A stretch of 64,000 nt of DNA from Gordonia malaquae NBRC 108250 (GTDB taxonomy: Bacteria; Actinomycetota; Actinomycetes; Mycobacteriales; Mycobacteriaceae): assembly GCF_000344135.1 (NCBI RefSeq), contig NZ_BAOP01000020.1:1-64000 (forward strand), written 5' to 3'. The position numbers were made by a program, and so were the translations under genes. The notes under the pieces are model-generated. The model saw nothing but the letters and a program-made list of their open reading frames with translations. It searched no databases and was not told where the DNA came from. This document shows positions 49,230 through 56,964 of the stretch, piece after piece (positions within the stretch are counted from its first letter, which is position 1; every line of letters begins with the position of its first letter).

Positions 49230-50726
49230 ATGCCCACTGACTCCATCCTCACCGACGCACCGCTCGACGTGCTCGTGCTCGGCGCAGGCATCTCCGGCAT
49301 CGGCGCCGGCCACTACCTGCGCACCGAGCATCCGTCGAAGTCGTTCGCGATGCTCGAGTCGCGCGACGCGGTCGGCGGCACGTGGGACCTGTTCCGCTAC
49401 CCCGGCATCCGCTCCGACTCCGACCTCAACACCTTCGGGTACGAGTTCAAGCCGTGGCAGGATCCGCAGTCGATCGCCGATGCGCCTCGCATCCTCGACT
49501 ACCTGCGCGAGGCGATCGCCGACGACCACCTCGACGACGCGATCGTGTTCAACCGTCGTGCCATCGCCATGAACTGGTCCGAGGCCGATCAGCTGTGGAA
49601 CGTGACCGTTCGTCGCAACGACTCGACCGACGACGACACGTTCAACGTCCAGGCCCGGTGGGTGTTCGCAGGCACCGGCTACTACAATTACGACGAGGGC
49701 TTCACCCCCGAGTTCCCGGGCAGCGAGAAGTTCGCCGGTCAGATCATCCACCCGCAGCATTGGCCCGAAGACCTGGATTACAAGGGCAAGAAGGTCATCG
49801 TGATCGGGTCCGGCGCCACCGCGGTGACTCTGGTTCCGTCCATGCAGGCCGACGCCGCGCACGTCACGATGCTGCAGCGCACACCCACGTACGTGATCCC
49901 GTTGCCCCGCGAGGACGCGGTCTCGAACGCTCTCAAGAAGGTCCTCGGCGCAGACCGCGGCTACGCATTGAGCCGGCAGAAGAACATCGTGCAGCAGAAG
50001 GTTGTCTACAACCTCTGCCAGCGGTACCCGCGGCCTGCACGCGCGATCATCCGAGCCACCAACAAGGCGCTTCTGCCCCGCGATTTCGACATCGACACCC
50101 ACTTCAACCCGCCGTACAACCCGTGGGACCAGCGGCTCTGCGTGGTGCCCGACGGTGACCTGTTCAAGGCGATCAAGAAGGGCAGTGCGTCGATCGAGAC
50201 CGGTCGGATCGCGACTTTCACCGAGAAGGGCATCCGCCTGGAGGACGGCCGAGAACTCGAAGCCGACATCATCGTCACCGCCACCGGCCTCAACCTGCAG
50301 TTGTTCGGCGGCATGGAAGTGAGCCTGGACGGAGAGGCCGTCGATCTGTCGCAGACAACCGCGTACCGCGGCATGATGCTGTCGGGTCTCCCGAACTTCG
50401 CCATGGCGATCGGCTACACCAACTCGTCGTGGACCCTCAAGATCGGGCTGCTGTGCGAGTACTTCTGCCGCGTTCTGACCTACCAGGACGCCAACGGATA
50501 CACGTCGGTCCGCGCAGTTGAGCCCGAGGGCCTGGAGAAGCGCCCGCTCCTCGACTTCGGAGCAGGTTATGTGAAGCGTGCGCTCGATCGTCTTCCCAAG
50601 CAGGGAACGCAGAGCCCGTGGACGATGACGATGGCGGTCTCCTCCGACGTGAAGCAGCTCCGCAAGGGCGAGATCGTCGACGAGTTCCTCGACTACCGCA
50701 AGGCTCCGGTCGCCGCAGGCGTCTGA
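49230..50726 (+). CDS. Flavin-containing Baeyer-Villiger-type monooxygenase (EthA-like)
   Basis: 498 residues. The FAD Rossmann loop is LVLGAGISGIGAG (15-27), the Baeyer-Villiger fingerprint FAGQIIHPQHWP lies at 168-179, and the NADPH loop is VIGSGATAV near 193. Sequence style and length match EthA of mycobacteria, which oxidises ketones and thio-compounds such as ethionamide. EthA is controlled by the TetR protein EthR; here the neighbour is a PucR regulator. Two related half sites (TACAACGAT / CATTGTTA, 49175-49191) lie in the intergenic region. Physiological substrate unknown. Confidence 0.88.
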   Translation: MPTDSILTDAPLDVLVLGAGISGIGAGHYLRTEHPSKSFAMLESRDAVGGTWDLFRYPGIRSDSDLNTFGYEFKPWQDPQSIADAPRILDYLREAIADDHLDDAIVFNRRAIAMNWSEADQLWNVTVRRNDSTDDDTFNVQARWVFAGTGYYNYDEGFTPEFPGSEKFAGQIIHPQHWPEDLDYKGKKVIVIGSGATAVTLVPSMQADAAHVTMLQRTPTYVIPLPREDAVSNALKKVLGADRGYALSRQKNIVQQKVVYNLCQRYPRPARAIIRATNKALLPRDFDIDTHFNPPYNPWDQRLCVVPDGDLFKAIKKGSASIETGRIATFTEKGIRLEDGRELEADIIVTATGLNLQLFGGMEVSLDGEAVDLSQTTAYRGMMLSGLPNFAMAIGYTNSSWTLKIGLLCEYFCRVLTYQDANGYTSVRAVEPEGLEKRPLLDFGAGYVKRALDRLPKQGTQSPWTMTMAVSSDVKQLRKGEIVDEFLDYRKAPVAAGV

Positions 50727-50742
50727 TCCGACTCGGTACGAA

Positions 50743-50909
50743 CTAGTGTCGTGTGTTGAAAGTTCCTAGACGGTTGGCGGTGCTCCGCTGTGCAGCTGGC
50801 AAGGCGGAGGAGGGAGGGATACCGGCAGGTATCGCGACCGACGACAACGCTGCCAGGTGTGCAGCGGGGTGCCGCCAACCATTAAGGAACTTTCAACACG
50901 CGACACTAG
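50743..50909. mobile_element. MITE-like palindromic element, 167 bp
   Basis: The ends are CTAGTGTCGTGTGTTGAAAG and CTTTCAACACGCGACACTAG. They continue as TTCCT/AGGAA, giving a 25-bp terminal inverted repeat with one mismatch. Inside, GGTTGGCGG and the opposing CCGCCAACC extend the symmetry over most of the element. A GATACCGGCAGGTATCG core (50818-50834) forms a central hairpin. There is no coding capacity. CTAG at both ends may be target-site duplication. This is a non-autonomous insertion between the monooxygenase gene and the next operon's terminator. Confidence 0.65.
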
Positions 50910-50910
50910 A

Positions 50911-50948
50911 ACAAAGGCGGTGCACCCGTGAAGGTGCACCGCCTTTGT
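50911..50948. terminator. Perfect 16-bp stem terminator
   Basis: ACAAAGGCGGTGCACC (50911-50926) and GGTGCACCGCCTTTGT (50933-50948) pair perfectly around a six-base loop, 14 bases after the stop of the mycoloyltransferase-like gene on the minus strand. It ends the secreted-protein operon. Confidence 0.85.
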
Positions 50949-50961
50949 CGTCGCTATGCGA

Positions 50962-51990
50962 TCAGTACAGCGAGGAGGAGATCTGCGGCCAGGAGTAGTG
51001 CAGTTCGCGCTCCCAGTAGCCCCACGAGTGAGTGCCGGTGGGACGCAGCTTGATGGTCGCGGGGATCTTGAGCTGGGCGAGACGCTGCGCCATCTGCTGA
51101 GTGCAGACGTTGGTCACCGCTTCGATGCCGCCACCCAGGATCACGCGATCGGCGAGATTGACGCTGTCCGTCGCGGTGCTGCCCGCCTCGACCGACTCGT
51201 CCTGGCCCGGAAGGCCGCTGTTGGACGACAGATACACCTTGGTGCCGCGCAGCTTCGCCGCGTTGATGTACGGGTCGTTGGCCTTCCAACCTGCGCCCTT
51301 GTACGGACCCCACATGTTCGTGGTGTCGGCACCGCCACGGCTCTCGACGACGGTCCGGATGTACTGCTGCCCCGCCGGGTCACTCGTCCGTGCGCAACCG
51401 CTGTACGACGCCGCCGTCGTGTACAGACCAGGCGCGGCGATCGCGAGGTTGAGCACCGAGGTGCCCGCCATCGAGATGCCCGCGATGGCGTTCTTGCCGG
51501 TGGTCTTGAGCTCATCATTCAGAACGGGCGGGAGTTCCTTGGTCAGGAACGTCTCCCACTTCTGAACGCCGAGCTTCGGGTCGGCCTTCTGCCAGTCGGT
51601 GTAGTACGAGAACGCGCCCTTGAGCGGTGTCACCACGTTCACGTGCTTGTTCGCGAAGAAGCCCGTGTAGTCGGTGCGGTTGGCCCAGCTCGCCGAGTCC
51701 TCTCCGCCGCCCGCACCGTTGAGCAGGTAGAACACCGGTGCAGGCGTGGAGTTCGCCGGGACGAGGACGTCGAGCGGGATGTCCTTCTGCATCGACGCCG
51801 AGTAGACGGTGACGAGCAGGCGGGACGGCTTGTCCAGGTCGCCGTTGTGGTAGGCGACCGGAACCGAGCTGACCACGTGTGACTCGCCTGACGACGGGTC
51901 GGCCTGTGCGATCGCGGCCGGTGCGGTGGTTCCCACCGCGGCGGCCACAGCGGCCGTGATCAGGCATCGTGCGGTTCTCGTGAACTTCAT
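50962..51990 (-). CDS. Antigen-85-like mycoloyltransferase/esterase, secreted
   Basis: 342 residues with a Sec signal peptide (cleavage probably after about residue 30, AIAQA). The alpha/beta hydrolase has nucleophile Ser173 in GISMAGTS and His321 in the conserved C-terminal HSWGYWERELHYSWP. This set is characteristic of the antigen 85/Cmt family, which transfers mycolates to trehalose, arabinogalactan or, in Corynebacterium, to proteins. It is the last gene of a five-gene minus-strand run, 12 bases after the preceding stop, and is followed by a strong terminator. Which acceptor it uses is not evident. Confidence 0.85.
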   Translation of the reverse strand: MKFTRTARCLITAAVAAAVGTTAPAAIAQADPSSGESHVVSSVPVAYHNGDLDKPSRLLVTVYSASMQKDIPLDVLVPANSTPAPVFYLLNGAGGGEDSASWANRTDYTGFFANKHVNVVTPLKGAFSYYTDWQKADPKLGVQKWETFLTKELPPVLNDELKTTGKNAIAGISMAGTSVLNLAIAAPGLYTTAASYSGCARTSDPAGQQYIRTVVESRGGADTTNMWGPYKGAGWKANDPYINAAKLRGTKVYLSSNSGLPGQDESVEAGSTATDSVNLADRVILGGGIEAVTNVCTQQMAQRLAQLKIPATIKLRPTGTHSWGYWERELHYSWPQISSSLY

Positions 51991-52002
51991 GGTGTGTCTT
52001 TC

Positions 52003-53244
52003 TTAGGAGCCGAAGATGTCCGACAGGCTGCCTGCCGAGCTGCCGTTGCCGCCGGGGGCGGTCGTCGTGGGCTTCGTCGTGGTCGGCGTGGTGGGGTCGG
52101 TGGTGTCGGTCGGATCCACCGGAACATCCTTGGCGGTGACCGTGACGTTCTTCGTGGTCGACTGCGCACCGATGGTCGCCTTCAATGCCACTGCACCCGG
52201 TGCGGACGGGGTCCACTGGCAGGTCGCCTTGTGATCGGCGCCGAGCGTCAGGTTCTGGCAGATCGCAGTGCCGTTCGCGGTCAGGGCAACGCTCGCACCG
52301 ACAGCGGCATCCGACTCAACTGTCACCGTGACGGCGTCGCCGACCTTCGGAGCGGCACTGAGAGTGACGATCGGGGCGCCGGGCTCCGGATCGGGGTCCT
52401 TGGGCGAGACGGTTCCACCGATGGACGACGACGACCCTGCGAGGGTCGCGGTGCCGGAGTACACGGCCTTCAGCGAGTAGGCGCCCTCGTTGGACGGGGT
52501 CCAGGAGACCGTCGCCTTGCCTGCGACGACGTTCGCGGTGCCGAGCGACACGTTGTGGTTGAAGAACTCGACAGTGCCGTCTGCGACCGTCGCGGTGCTC
52601 GTGATCTTCGCGGTGACCGTTGACGGGTCACCGACCTTCGGAGCAGGGCTCACCGAGACAGCTGTGGTGGTGGCGTCCTTCTGCGGCGGGGTCTGGACCT
52701 TGATGTTCGGCCCCTTGTCCTGGTACGTCCCGCTGCCGAGTGAACCGCCGTAGTGCATGGTGCCGACAGCGAGGTTCACTCCGGTCGGGCAGTTCTCGCC
52801 CACCTTGTACTTGAGCGAGATAGTCCGCTTCGCCCCCCATCCCGCACCGACTCCCGGAACGCGCCACGAGGTCAAATTAGGCGATTCGAGACGGACGAAG
52901 CCGAGCTGACCAGCTGCCGCGGTGGACACCTGCACGTTCGTGGTGGCTGAATCCTCCCACTTCGCACTGCCCTGAACGTAGTCCAGACAACCGTCTTCGA
53001 GGTCCTTGAAGTTATACACGTCCTCGAACGACCACTTGCGCTGGAATGTGGTCGACACGGTGATCGTGTCACCGATGGCGGGATTCACATCGCTCACGGT
53101 GCGCGAGAAGGCCGTGTTGCCGTCGGACCATTCAATGGTCGCGGGTGCCGCCGCTGCGACACCGGGAGTCGACGCGATAAGGCCTGCGACGACCAACAGT
53201 CCGGTTCCGGTCGCCGCTGCGACGCGGCCCAATGATCTAGTCAT
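52003..53244 (-). CDS. Secreted two-Cys domain protein with two Ig-like repeats and GSL tail
   Basis: 413 residues. A signal peptide (1-33) is followed by the domain shared with its neighbours: EWSDGNTAFSRTVSD, TFQRKW, Cys86 and Cys152, MHYGGSLGSGTYQDKGP. Two bacterial Ig-like repeats follow, at about 190-285 and 290-375 (each with PAPKVGDPSTVT- or AAPKVGDAVTVT-type openings), then a Pro/Thr-rich linker. The C-terminus is GSLSDIFGS. It lies 12 bases before the mycoloyltransferase-like gene and 21 bases after the previous paralogue. Probably a cell-envelope protein; no named function. Confidence 0.7.
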   Translation of the reverse strand: MTRSLGRVAAATGTGLLVVAGLIASTPGVAAAAPATIEWSDGNTAFSRTVSDVNPAIGDTITVSTTFQRKWSFEDVYNFKDLEDGCLDYVQGSAKWEDSATTNVQVSTAAAGQLGFVRLESPNLTSWRVPGVGAGWGAKRTISLKYKVGENCPTGVNLAVGTMHYGGSLGSGTYQDKGPNIKVQTPPQKDATTTAVSVSPAPKVGDPSTVTAKITSTATVADGTVEFFNHNVSLGTANVVAGKATVSWTPSNEGAYSLKAVYSGTATLAGSSSSIGGTVSPKDPDPEPGAPIVTLSAAPKVGDAVTVTVESDAAVGASVALTANGTAICQNLTLGADHKATCQWTPSAPGAVALKATIGAQSTTKNVTVTAKDVPVDPTDTTDPTTPTTTKPTTTAPGGNGSSAGSLSDIFGS

Positions 53245-53265
53245 GTCTGCTGTCTCTTCCGTGTC

Positions 53266-53934
53266 TCAGCCGAACAGGCTGCCGAGGCTGCCCGTGTCGA
53301 GGCTGCCGTTTCCGCTGTTTGGATTCGTGGTTGTCGGAGTGGTTGTTCCGGTCGGCTCTTCGGTGACCGGAGGCTTCGCGACGGTGATCGTCGGTCCCTT
53401 GTCCTCGTACGTGCCCGAACCGAGGGACCCTCCGTAGTGCATCGATGTCGGCATCGCGACACCAGTTCCACAAGATTCGCGCACGTAGAACTGCATCGAG
53501 ACCGATTTCTTGCCTCCGAAGCCTGAGCCGAGGCCCTTGACGACCCACGACGTGATGCTCGGCGCGTTCACTTTGACGTATGCCTGCGGGTCTGCGGGGG
53601 TTCCCGAGCTGATCTCGACTTTGTCGGCAGGAGACGGTGATCCTCCCCAGCCTGCGCTGCCCTCGATGTATCGGAGGCAGGCCGGAACGAGTTCTTTGAC
53701 GCTGTAGATGTACTCGTCGGCCCACTTGCGCTGGAACTGTGTGGTGATGGTGATCGTGTCGCCGATCTCGGGCGTGGTGTCGCTGACCAGCTGGTTGAAT
53801 CGAGAGTTTCCGTCCTCCCAGTAGGTGAGGCCCTCGTCTGCCGAGGCCGATCCGCTTGACAGTGCAACGCCGGTCGCGGCGATCGCGCAGGCGCTGAGTC
53901 CCGCCACGATCCGTCCGAACATGCTTGTAGTCAT
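53266..53934 (-). CDS. Secreted two-Cys domain protein with GSL tail (paralogue 2)
   Basis: 222 residues. A signal peptide (about 1-32) is followed by YWEDGNSRFNQLVSD, FQRKWADEYIYSVKELVPAC (Cys86), APSITSWVVKGLGSG, Cys155 and MHYGGSLGSGTYEDKGP. A short Pro/Thr linker ends in GNGSLDTGSLGSLFG. It is the domain-only form of the family, lacking Ig repeats. AGGAGA precedes ATG 53934. The two conserved Cys probably form a disulfide. Function unknown. Confidence 0.7.
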   Translation of the reverse strand: MTTSMFGRIVAGLSACAIAATGVALSSGSASADEGLTYWEDGNSRFNQLVSDTTPEIGDTITITTQFQRKWADEYIYSVKELVPACLRYIEGSAGWGGSPSPADKVEISSGTPADPQAYVKVNAPSITSWVVKGLGSGFGGKKSVSMQFYVRESCGTGVAMPTSMHYGGSLGSGTYEDKGPTITVAKPPVTEEPTGTTTPTTTNPNSGNGSLDTGSLGSLFG

Positions 53935-53973
53935 GAGGTGTTTTCTCCTGAGGAAGTTGTCGTCGATGAATGA

Positions 53974-54600
53974 CTAGGAGGAGCCGAACAGGCTGCCGAT
54001 GTCGAGGCTGCCGTTGCTGCCTCCAGGCTCCGTCGGCTCCTCGACCGTGCCTTCTGCGATCGTGATGACCGGACCCTTCTCCTTGTACGTACCGCTGCCG
54101 AGAGAGCCGCCGTAGTGCATCGTGGTCGACAGGACGTCGCCGGCCTTACACGCGTTGGTGACGCGGAAGTCCGTCGTGAGCTTCACCTTGGCGCCCCACC
54201 CACTGCCGAGACCCGTGACCTTCCAGGCGGTGATGCTGGGCGCTTCGACACGCATCCATGATTCGTCCGCTCCCGGTTCCGAGGTGGTGACCTTGGACGT
54301 CACCAGCTTGCCCGCCCACGTCGTGGTCCCCGGCACGGACTCGATGCACGAACCAACGAGTTCCTTCACGTTGTAGATGTACTCATCGGCCCACTTGCGC
54401 TGGAACGACGTAGTCACCGTGAACGTCTCGCCGACCTTGGGGTTGTCGTTGCTGACCGTCTGTTCGAAGCGGGAGTTTCCGTCCTCCCAGTAGGTCATGG
54501 TGTCGATCGCGGCGCCGGCGGTGCCGGGCACTGCGACGATGCTCGAGAGCGCGACAGCGCTCGCGCCGACGACAAGCGCGGCGGTTCTCTTCATGGACAT
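53974..54600 (-). CDS. Secreted two-Cys domain protein with GSL tail (paralogue 3)
   Basis: 208 residues. A signal peptide (about 1-30) is followed by YWEDGNSRFEQTVSN, FQRKWADEYIYNVKELVGSC (Cys85), APSITAWKVTGLGSGWG, Cys151 and MHYGGSLGSGTYKEKGP. The C-terminus is SNGSLDIGSLFGSS. It is close to paralogue 2 across the whole domain, indicating tandem duplication, while linkers differ. It starts at ATG 54600 or at the second Met two codons later. Function unknown. Confidence 0.7.
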   Translation of the reverse strand: MSMKRTAALVVGASAVALSSIVAVPGTAGAAIDTMTYWEDGNSRFEQTVSNDNPKVGETFTVTTSFQRKWADEYIYNVKELVGSCIESVPGTTTWAGKLVTSKVTTSEPGADESWMRVEAPSITAWKVTGLGSGWGAKVKLTTDFRVTNACKAGDVLSTTMHYGGSLGSGTYKEKGPVITIAEGTVEEPTEPGGSNGSLDIGSLFGSS

Positions 54601-54683
54601 GCGTCAACCTGTGTTTCTGTGAATCGGGGCGCGCTGGGAGGGAGCGCAGGAACGGGGATGGTCAGTGCGACGTGAACGGTGAC

Positions 54684-55628
54684 TTAGGATCCGCTCAAAC
54701 CGCCGAGGCTTCCGGTGTAGAGACTTCCCGAGTCGAGCCCGGGCAAAGCACCGAGACTGCCTGCCGGGCTGTCGTTGATGTGGACTTTCTGGGTGATGGT
54801 GACCGGGGAGTCCGTGCCGACAACAGCCTTGACGGTGTAGTCGCCCTTCTTCTTCGGCACCCACGTGCAGGTGACGCGGCGATTGCCGTCGAGTTTGAGG
54901 TTTCCGCACCCGTCGACGGTCTTGCCGTCGATGGTGAGGACGACCGGCGCACCGGGAACGCCTTCGGGGTGACTGACCGTCAGGAACACATCGTTCGCAG
55001 CGAGGGCGTCCGTGGGGTTGATCGTGATCGAGGGACGGCCCGCGACGACATTCAGCATGGGACCGACGAACGGTCGGGTGTTTCCGCTCTCGAACGCCCA
55101 GGTGGTGCTCCATTCGAGACCGCCGGAATTGAGCGGGCCGAGTTCGCAGCTGCTGCCGACGAGGTAGTCCTGCGTCCAGATCAGCGGGTCGGCCTGCCAG
55201 GAGTTCGCGCCGGGGGCGTCGATCATCGCCCATCCCGCACCCGAGGAGAACTCGCCGGGCGCCTTCGTCCCCTCGCCCTCGGGATCATTGGTGTAGGTCT
55301 TGCCGTTCACCTTCCACGTGGAGGTGTTCGGCACTGCTTCGAAGCACGTCGGATGCGTGTCCTTGATGGAGTAGACGAGCCATGCCATCTTGCGGCTCAA
55401 TTTGTTCGTGATGGTGACCACGTCGCCGCGGGCGACTGTGCCACCGACGAGTGACGGGCCGCTCACCGAACGCTGGAACGACGCCGCGTCAGACTCGCCG
55501 TTGATCGGTCCGACCACGTCGGCGGCGCTGATGCCGGGGGCGCCCGTCACGACGAGCGCGGCGGCCGCTGCGGTGGTCAGCACCGCAGCGGCCGTCCGGC
55601 GTGCGAGAGAGGTCACGGGGAGGTTCAC
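54684..55628 (-). CDS. Secreted two-Cys domain protein with Ig-like domain and GSL tail (paralogue 4)
   Basis: About 314 residues. A signal peptide (to about 37) is followed by a diverged version of the shared domain (FQRSVSGPSLVGG, SRKMAWLVYSIKDTHPTC, APGANSWQADPLIW, SSCELG). One Ig-like domain at about 200-285 contains CGNLKLDGNRRVTCTW. The C-terminus is SGSLYTGSLGGLSGS. GTG 55628 has AGGAG at nine bases and is preferred to GTG 55634. It is the first gene of the five-gene run, so the operon promoter should lie in 55629-55740. Function unknown. Confidence 0.65.
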   Translation of the reverse strand: MNLPVTSLARRTAAAVLTTAAAAALVVTGAPGISAADVVGPINGESDAASFQRSVSGPSLVGGTVARGDVVTITNKLSRKMAWLVYSIKDTHPTCFEAVPNTSTWKVNGKTYTNDPEGEGTKAPGEFSSGAGWAMIDAPGANSWQADPLIWTQDYLVGSSCELGPLNSGGLEWSTTWAFESGNTRPFVGPMLNVVAGRPSITINPTDALAANDVFLTVSHPEGVPGAPVVLTIDGKTVDGCGNLKLDGNRRVTCTWVPKKKGDYTVKAVVGTDSPVTITQKVHINDSPAGSLGALPGLDSGSLYTGSLGGLSGS

Positions 55629-55740
55629 GTGCACGAGCTCCTGTTGATCGATCGAACGAGAGATTCATGTCACCGTACGGTCACGAACGTGAATTCCGTC
55701 ATTCAGATCGGGAAGCTGGCACGATTTTGCGCGACCCCGA

Positions 55741-56964
55741 TCAGCGCTGGAGCAATCCCTTGGCTACATGGGTGACCTGAATCTCGTTCGATCCTGCATA
55801 GATCATCAGCGACTTTGCATCGCGGGCGAGTTGCTCCACTCGATACTCAGCCATGTACCCGTTTCCTCCGAACAGCTGAACCGCTTCCATGGCAACTTCT
55901 GTCGCCGCGCGCGAGGAGTACAGCTTCATCGCAGACGCCTGCGCGAGAGTCGGCGGCTTACCCGCTTGAGCAGCCTCAATAGCGACGAACAGCATGTTCT
56001 GGACATTCAGGCGCGCCACTTCCATCTCGGCGAGCTTGAGCTGGATCAACTGGAACTTGGCGATCTCCTGACCCCAGAGGGTGCGGGTCCGGGCGTAGTC
56101 GATCGACAGACGCTGAGCCTCGTTGATGATGCCCAGCGAGAGAGCGGCGATGCCGATCCGCTCGGCGGTGAAGCCCGCCTTGGCATTGTCGCCGCCACTG
56201 CGGTCGCCGGTCTCCTCGGTTTCGCCCAGCAAACGGTCGCGCGACACACGCACGTCGTCGAAGAACAGCTCGCCGGTGGGCGAGCTCATCATGCCCATCT
56301 TCTTGAAGGGCTTGCCGAGCGTGAGGCCTTCCATTCCGGCGTCGAGCACAAATGTCAGTACCTTGCGGTCACGCATCGGCGTGCCGTCGCCCTCGTCGAG
56401 CTTGGCGAAGACGACGATCGTGTCCGCGTACGGACCGTTGGTGATGAAGGTCTTGTTGCCTTTGAGGATGTAGTCGTCGCCGTCTCTGCGGACAGTGGTC
56501 TTCATGCCGCCGAGCGCATCCGACCCGCTGTCGGGTTCGGTGATGGCCCAGGCGCCGACCTTCTCCATCGTGACCAGCTCGGGCAGCCAACGCTTCTTCT
56601 GGGCGAGCGTTCCGCGGCTCCGGATGGTCGACACCGTCAGGCCCATCGACACGCCCATCGACGCGATGGTGCCGAGGGACACTCCGGCCATCTCCATGTT
56701 GAGGATCAGGAACATCGAATTGGCGAGCGTGCTGGAGCCGCCGCCTGCAGGCTTGGCCTCACCGGCTTCCTGCGCCGCGAGTTCTTTCTCCAGATTCTCG
56801 GCGTTCATCGAATCCATGCCGAAAGTCGACAGGAGCTTGCGGATGATGTCGTACGGCGGGAGTTTCCCGCTCTCGAGATCGTCGACGTACGGACGCACTT
56901 CTTTGTCGATGAACCCTCGGACGGCGTCTTGCACCATCCGGTCTTCGTCGGACCACTCGAACAT
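55741..56964 (-). CDS. Acyl-CoA dehydrogenase with relocated catalytic Glu
   Basis: 407 residues of the acyl-CoA dehydrogenase family (AWAITEPDSGSDALGGMKT; LFGGNGYMAEYRVEQLARDAK). The usual catalytic Glu before GxxxxQ is Ala390 (IYAGSNEIQ). A Glu268 in TAERIGIAALSLG aligns with the position used by isovaleryl-CoA-type dehydrogenases, so the enzyme is probably active with the base on the other helix. An unusual insert at about 50-80 (Glu/Ala/Gly-rich) is absent from FadE25-like proteins. It is divergent from the serine-hydrolase gene with only 22 bases between starts. Confidence 0.85.
   Translation of the reverse strand: MFEWSDEDRMVQDAVRGFIDKEVRPYVDDLESGKLPPYDIIRKLLSTFGMDSMNAENLEKELAAQEAGEAKPAGGGSSTLANSMFLILNMEMAGVSLGTIASMGVSMGLTVSTIRSRGTLAQKKRWLPELVTMEKVGAWAITEPDSGSDALGGMKTTVRRDGDDYILKGNKTFITNGPYADTIVVFAKLDEGDGTPMRDRKVLTFVLDAGMEGLTLGKPFKKMGMMSSPTGELFFDDVRVSRDRLLGETEETGDRSGGDNAKAGFTAERIGIAALSLGIINEAQRLSIDYARTRTLWGQEIAKFQLIQLKLAEMEVARLNVQNMLFVAIEAAQAGKPPTLAQASAMKLYSSRAATEVAMEAVQLFGGNGYMAEYRVEQLARDAKSLMIYAGSNEIQVTHVAKGLLQR

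Follow-up and report, generated by a model that had tools for sequence, protein, structure and literature searches.

The window analysed here is a stretch of 64,000 nucleotides (nt) from Gordonia malaquae NBRC 108250 (contig NZ_BAOP01000020.1, positions 1 to 64,000). On its minus strand it carries a run of five genes, in which four genes for paralogous, probably secreted proteins, here called P1 to P4, are followed by a gene for a mycoloyltransferase, here called E. These four proteins share a short C-terminal tail with Gly-Ser-Leu (GSL) units, and this tail and its relation to the enzyme are the subject of this work. In what follows, G000 denotes the genome of the window, which lies on contig C96, other G numbers denote the compared genomes, and L numbers the retrieved loci. 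The features of the run, with Ig standing for immunoglobulin, are:

54684..55634, minus strand: P1, secreted protein of 316 amino acids with a GTG start; core of beta-sandwich type plus a CARDB/Ig-like stretch; tail GSLYTGSLGGLSGS
54687..54728, minus strand: C-terminal tail of P1
53974..54600, minus strand: P2, secreted protein of 208 amino acids; tail GSLDIGSLFGSS
53977..54012, minus strand: C-terminal tail of P2
53266..53934, minus strand: P3, secreted protein of 222 amino acids; core all-beta in the AlphaFold2 model; tail GSLDTGSLGSLFG
53269..53307, minus strand: C-terminal tail of P3
52003..53244, minus strand: P4, secreted protein of 413 amino acids; P core, Big_3_5 and a second Ig-like stretch; tail GSSAGSLSDIFGS
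52006..52044, minus strand: C-terminal tail of P4
50962..51990, minus strand: E, Cmt1-type mycoloyltransferase of 342 amino acids; signal peptide by eye; triad S173, E290, H321 predicted from the Cmt1 alignment
50911..50948, minus strand: hairpin, possible operon terminator; perfect 16-bp arms, 6-nt loop, beginning 13 nt past the stop of E

From these coordinates the gene order is P1-P2-P3-P4-E with gaps of 83, 39, 21 and 12 nt. A first, sequence-only reading of this DNA had described four minus-strand signal-peptide genes with GSL tails and an antigen-85-like gene 12 bases downstream, and both statements were confirmed by coordinates and translations, with the N-termini of P1-P4 reading as Sec signal peptides by eye and with a crude script, and with E, which starts 12 nt after P4, being of the Cmt1 type. 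Its further statement that one terminator closes the run holds in part, as the scan of 50700-55800 found a single terminator-like site, at the perfect hairpin beyond E, but the T-run of this hairpin is weak and shuffled sequences gave a mean of 3.3 such sites; termination at the hairpin 3′ of E is plausible. The same scan of 50700-55800 found no promoter-like site. Abutting the hairpin, positions 50743-50909 hold a 167-bp element with 59-nt inverted arms that are 83% complementary; with six full-length copies in the genome at 95-100% identity, plus partial copies, it is a repeat resembling a miniature inverted-repeat transposable element.

No Pfam match above the cut-off was found for the P core, and the added Ig repeats that had been described hold for P4, which carries a Big_3_5 Ig repeat, and only as a CARDB/Ig-like stretch below the cut-off for P1 (CARDB 17.3 bits in P1 and 10.1 bits in P4, cut-off 22.7). 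A search for solved relatives of P2 by sequence gave at best an expectation value of 0.19, and a search for viral copies returned four stretches with the pattern, none of them a relative. Two core cysteines are invariant in all 22 aligned members of the P family. In the AlphaFold2 model of P3 the core is all-beta, mostly at a predicted local distance difference test (pLDDT) score above 90; the tail, at about 50, is predicted to be a flexible Gly/Ser-rich stretch holding Ser, as in mapped O-mycoloylation sites. Foldseek related this model loosely to pilin and adhesin modules, at expectation values of about 1e-5 and template-modelling scores (query length) of about 0.3-0.4, which, for a predicted structure, say beta-sandwich and no more.

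The tail is conserved in the family. A GSL lies within the last 12 residues of 20 of the 22 members, where shuffling of the last 25 residues gives an expectation of 1.92, with the caveat that some members were found by profiles that included the tails, and the two exceptions have longer Gly/Leu/Phe-rich ends. Three of the nine invariant columns in the alignment of the 22 members are supplied by the tail. Compared with their counterparts in the near relative G076, P1-P4 show 7 synonymous and 0 non-synonymous changes in their last 12 codons. P2 closes with LFGSS, and the second protein of the P locus in G020 with GLFGSS.

The enzyme matches the Pfam family Esterase (PF00756) with 102.6 bits (cut-off 22), and its best solved relatives are Cmt1 (252 bits), PS1/MytA (157) and Ag85A (108). 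The Cmt1 triad S189, E310, H341 aligns with S173, E290, H321 of E. A tree of 28 rows separates E from MytA/Ag85 at 98/96 support and places it in a 19-row group with Cmt1 (89/90), which also holds the paralogs C103 and C109 and in which the exact place of Cmt1 is unsettled. By match scores, tree and triad, E is thus assigned to the Cmt1 type; that it acylates proteins is a prediction.

Across Gordonia, the closest relatives of E and the P family occur in the same genomes. The P family is present in 7 of 59 genomes, and E matches of at least 500 bits occur in exactly those same seven; the next matches have 470 bits (G004), 458 and 449 bits (both G063), and then 434 and lower, and the 500-bit line was set after seeing the gap from 504 to 470 bits. 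In five of the seven genomes the P genes adjoin E, at three different sites: G076 and G020 have four P genes and E at the same place with the same neighbours, the second gene in G020 being P1-like, and G070 and G061 have P genes and E together amid different neighbours. On a pepA tree the seven genomes require 4 changes, at least 3 of them forced, this tree covering 30 of the 59 genomes with all seven included, having several rows with over-long gene starts, and omitting columns filled in fewer than 30% of the rows.

The association extends beyond the P family. The ten top-ranking enzymes, namely the E hits of the seven genomes, that of G004 and two of G063, were compared with 15 controls, comprising the nine paralogs of E in G000, which encodes 10 mycoloyltransferase-like proteins with E included, and the next six hits in rank. 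Among neighbours up to four genes away on each side, 18 of 76 carry the tail in the former set and 1 of 97 in the latter; counted by locus, an adjacent tail is found at 8/10 versus 1/15 (Fisher p 0.0003, indicative only, as the rows are related to one another). The lone control match is a DyP peroxidase ending GSLGIGSLR beside an encapsulin gene. In flanks of about 1.5 kb, which overlap five of the 15 control loci and in which some neighbours are cut short, tails were found on 0 of 67 proteins near 21 non-Gordonia relatives and on 0 of 87 near other Gordonia relatives.

G004 and G063 have no P-family match, and the E relatives there adjoin proteins ending NGSLDGIFG, GTGSLDSLLP, WGSLEDLLP and YGSLDGIIG. 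The crude script recognised signal peptides in two of them; the starts of the remaining two are probably mis-called. They form two groups, neither of which phmmer links to the P family or to the other, and the P profile, tail included, gives them at most 7 bits. One group also takes in a family, Y, from G000:C112 (190 amino acids, tail GLGSLGSLLP), G076 and G020. Taken together, it is very probable that enzyme and tail are functionally linked. In L106 9420-12189 (G004), two tandem open reading frames of 437 amino acids with identical printed starts and ends lie downstream of the transferase-tail pair.

From these observations we propose, at a probability of about one in two, that the GSL tail marks proteins at the C-terminus for O-mycoloylation of serine by E, the tail itself serving as the acyl acceptor. 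The Sec pathway would export P1-P4, whose bodies would form surface modules of beta-sandwich type and leave the C-terminus exposed as a flexible tail; this tail has one or two G-S-L units and, in most cases, a hydrophobic end. E, presumably exported from the same transcript, would then load its catalytic serine with the mycoloyl group of trehalose monomycolate and pass this group to one or more tail serines, and this acylation would anchor the P proteins in the mycomembrane. Other tailed proteins, such as the 190-residue G000:C112 protein, would be further substrates in trans. The wider claim, a C-terminal O-mycoloylation sorting signal outside Corynebacterium, carried by at least four unrelated exported Gordonia families and paired with its own Cmt1-type transferase, which would act on substrates both in cis and in trans, is offered tentatively, as somewhat less probable than the signal itself.

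The chemistry of this proposal has precedent in Corynebacterium glutamicum, for which the papers named here by PubMed Central (PMC) number are drawn on in excerpt. MytC/Cmt1 alone acylates PorA at Ser15 in vitro with trehalose monomycolate (PMC11927696), and Cmt1/MytC is the only type shown to modify proteins in the excerpts of the cited literature. The modified residues are mostly Ser, less often Thr, amid Ser/Gly/Ala in flexible stretches (PMC11066868), and they include Ser56 of the 57 residues of PorH and the penultimate Ser37 of ProtX, with PorB sharing the C-terminal NFSS of PorH (PMC5310785). PorA and PorH lack signal peptides (PMC11927696).

Several observations weigh against reading the tail as an acylation signal. 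As to the precedent, no strict consensus was found for C. glutamicum (PMC11066868). As to the enzyme, Cmt1 is likewise the best match of the paralogs C103 and C109 (227 and 218 bits), so that likeness to Cmt1 does not single out E. As to conservation, the sequence-only reading had the tails kept while linkers and Ig repeats differ, which agrees with the family-wide count against shuffled ends, but for P1-P4 against G076 the ratio of non-synonymous to synonymous substitution rates (dN/dS) is 0.131 in the last 20 codons, no lower than in the core (0.086) or the linker (0.051), so that this pair alone gives no sign of special constraint.

As to linkage, G071 and G024 have the P genes at the usual place without E, which lies on another contig beside lipoprotein-like genes. 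The seven genomes are clustered on the pepA tree, as few changes being reached in 8 of 500 shuffles, and because E and the P genes are adjacent in five of the seven, one locus gained or lost jointly could explain much of the match in their distribution; beyond adjacency, only G071 and G024 add evidence, since E and P are unlinked there. In the enzyme tree the E group of the seven (84/74) and the G004/G063 group (89/86) are separated by an open fork, and one clade of both is not supported.

As to distribution, tails also occur apart from any recognised transferase. Family Y lies away from any transferase flagged among its neighbours. A further family, Z (about 230 amino acids; two members compared by phmmer, the rest by eye), is found in ten Gordonia genomes that have no close relative of E, with tails GSLENLFP, GSLENIFP, GSLDSLIP and GSLESLIP and no transferase flagged within three genes either side. 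Similar tails thus appear on four or more types of body, and enzymes other than E may also read them. A near-P3 tail, GNGSLDTGSLGSLLP, stands on a Y-family body in a 180-residue exported protein of G020 (L147 6475-7017), near which no transferase was flagged.

Outside Gordonia, a search of 397 Mycobacteriales genomes, with five candidates scored per genome, found the P family in G305 (another genus), G269 and G371. G305 has five P copies with tails such as GTGSLGSIFGS and no transferase flagged in the retrieved stretches, which again counts against a tail tied to E; the P-family tail of G269 and G371 is STGSF. Two further observations stand apart. In genus g24 (L073 8050-9401, L074 9041-10417), the neighbour that a P-family protein ending STGSF faces closes with STGSFGCPLPSISG, which may be a variant tail. 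A second exported family of about 240 amino acids with an SSTGS/SSTGG tail pattern lies near P genes in three genomes; its members are L070 6550-7269 and L058 1483-2229, related by phmmer, and L071 9145-9864 and the L059 5972-6253 fragment, assigned by eye only.

The sequence-only reading had tied the tail to mycolic acids, expecting it not to be equally common in actinomycetes that lack them. A fixed-spacing pattern (GSL[DEG]x, two hydrophobic residues, [GP] and a TAA or TGA stop), after a hand filter and with genomes sorted by taxonomy and not by known mycolate content, was found in 19/59 Gordonia, 1/37 other Mycobacteriales and 2/353 other Actinomycetes genomes. These counts lean towards that expectation, but they cover one spacing only, the Gordonia matches are largely inherited families, and, as a further point against the reading, the Gordonia counts before filtering were no higher than those of a reversed-pattern control. 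Of 17 chosen pattern sites that were retrieved, 15 fell in called genes with the tail and two (L158, L159) did not, and one of the 15, the 430-residue protein of L160, has no signal peptide by eye. The single match among other Mycobacteriales, G238 with GSLDELLP, is probably no tail of this kind, since it has the same end as the L160 protein. The two matches beyond the Mycobacteriales are G624, a short open frame with no visible signal peptide, and G752.

Two claims of the sequence-only reading are thus left standing in part. That the tail is an acylation or sorting signal agrees with the unrelated tailed bodies beside E-type enzymes and with the Cmt1 type of E, but not readily with tails in Gordonia genomes that have no close E relative and at places away from recognised transferases. 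That the operon pairs substrates with their modifying enzyme agrees with tails beside E and its closest relatives far above the level beside other mycoloyltransferases, but less well with the unlinked E of G071 and G024 and with the tails elsewhere.

Among the alternatives, the one that survives best, though we consider it unlikely, is that the tail is bound non-covalently, as a docking or oligomerisation peptide to mycolates, arabinogalactan or E, that E acylates glycolipids, and that all belong to one envelope module. The mycoloyltransferases of C. glutamicum do act on trehalose and arabinose acceptors (excerpt of PMC11927696), E has the Cmt1-like paralogs described above, and the hydrophobic end of the tail could insert in the membrane. 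However, non-covalent binding alone does not predict that E and its closest relatives have similarly tailed but otherwise unrelated proteins as neighbours, and the Cmt1/MytC type to which E is assigned is the one with a demonstrated action on proteins in the excerpted papers.

It is less probable still that the tail is read by another exported machine, such as a protease, a transpeptidase or a secretion system, with E co-selected for some other reason. Tails in Gordonia genomes without close E relatives, and the G305 copies with no transferase flagged nearby, would suit such a machine. Against it, the transferase recurs beside tails, although no search was aimed at other candidate machines, and the layout is not sortase-like. 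A signal of the LPXTG, PEP-CTERM or rhombosortase type was rejected, as by reading the chains end no more than about a dozen residues past the motif with neither a transmembrane helix nor a basic cluster after it.

A look-alike that the sequence-only reading did not mention is the near-identical targeting peptide of encapsulin cargo, GSLxIGSLK in DyP (excerpt of PMC10960027). P2, with GSLDIGSL, fits it except at the end, and in G000 itself a DyP ending GSLGIGSLR accompanies an encapsulin (G000:C111). That the tail loads the P proteins into such a protein shell is nevertheless very improbable. Encapsulin loading and its cargo are cytosolic, whereas P1-P4 have export signals by eye and by the crude script. 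The IGSL pattern is missing from P1, P3, P4 and the G004/G063 tails, and GSLDIGSLF of P2 has no following Lys or Arg; 58 of 59 Gordonia genomes have encapsulin, so that its distribution does not follow that of the P family, present in 7; and the sole encapsulin found in G000 lies on C111, the window on C96. P1-P4 were accordingly rejected as encapsulin cargo on signal peptides, missing residues and distribution, and the likeness is taken here as convergence and as a trap for automatic annotation. At the encapsulin locus (L029 6976-10022, G000:C111), the genes for encapsulin, for the DyP peroxidase with the end GSLGIGSLR and for a distant mycoloyltransferase paralog lie in a row. Finally, that the tails are functionless low-complexity ends kept by descent, as freely varying Gly/Ser-rich linkers, the paralogy of P1-P4 and a tail dN/dS not below that of the linker between two near relatives might suggest, is hardly credible against 20 of 22 tails kept and the presence of similar tails on bodies between which phmmer finds no relation.

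In the literature, no paper on a C-terminal mycoloylation tail or a Gordonia transferase-substrate operon was among the matches listed, most subscription journals lying outside the coverage. The excerpts call protein O-mycoloylation the only known bacterial protein O-acylation, undemonstrated in mycobacteria, with an adapter or colocalisation suggested as the selector of substrates (PMC11066868), and whether it occurs outside Corynebacterium was described as open in 2017 (PMC5310785). The kind of reaction proposed here is known, and the tail and its pairing with an enzyme appear to be new. Since close Cmt1 orthologs are reported in Nocardia and Rhodococcus (PMC11066868), a Cmt1-type enzyme in Gordonia is by itself unsurprising. 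Recognition could be tested on the natural enzyme-substrate set that operons of one Cmt1-type enzyme and shared-tail proteins would provide, and the tail could be used to search Gordonia and relatives for outer-membrane proteins.

In comparison with known systems, the proposed one resembles O-mycoloylation by Cmt1/MytC in C. glutamicum (PorA, PorH, PorB, PorC, ProtX and about 30 candidates) in its Cmt1-type enzyme with the same triad and in a Ser within a Ser/Gly-rich flexible stretch, the PorH and ProtX sites being penultimate. However, in C. glutamicum small porins and many further proteins share one enzyme and show no strict consensus, whereas the Gordonia enzyme is narrowly spread and lies beside exported beta-sandwich and other bodies that share the GSL tail. 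With the encapsulin peptide GSLxIGSLK it has nearly the same C-terminal letters in common, but differs in lacking the IGSL-K/R end needed there and in the export signals of the P proteins. In LPXTG/sortase systems, a short C-terminal tag on exported proteins is matched to a processing enzyme. PEP-CTERM/EpsH (exosortase) and GlyGly-CTERM/rhombosortase, likewise found by genome comparison, also join a short C-terminal tag on varied exported proteins to a matched enzyme (PMC1569441; PMC3237569; excerpts). Unlike in all three, no transmembrane helix or basic end follows the GSL, and the enzyme is of the acyltransferase type, not a transpeptidase or protease. If the proposal is true, these bacteria would use the tail to address proteins to their outer membrane, a label of a new kind that would answer how such transferases choose their proteins, and the GSL tail with its enzyme would represent the mycomembrane counterpart of LPXTG and sortase.

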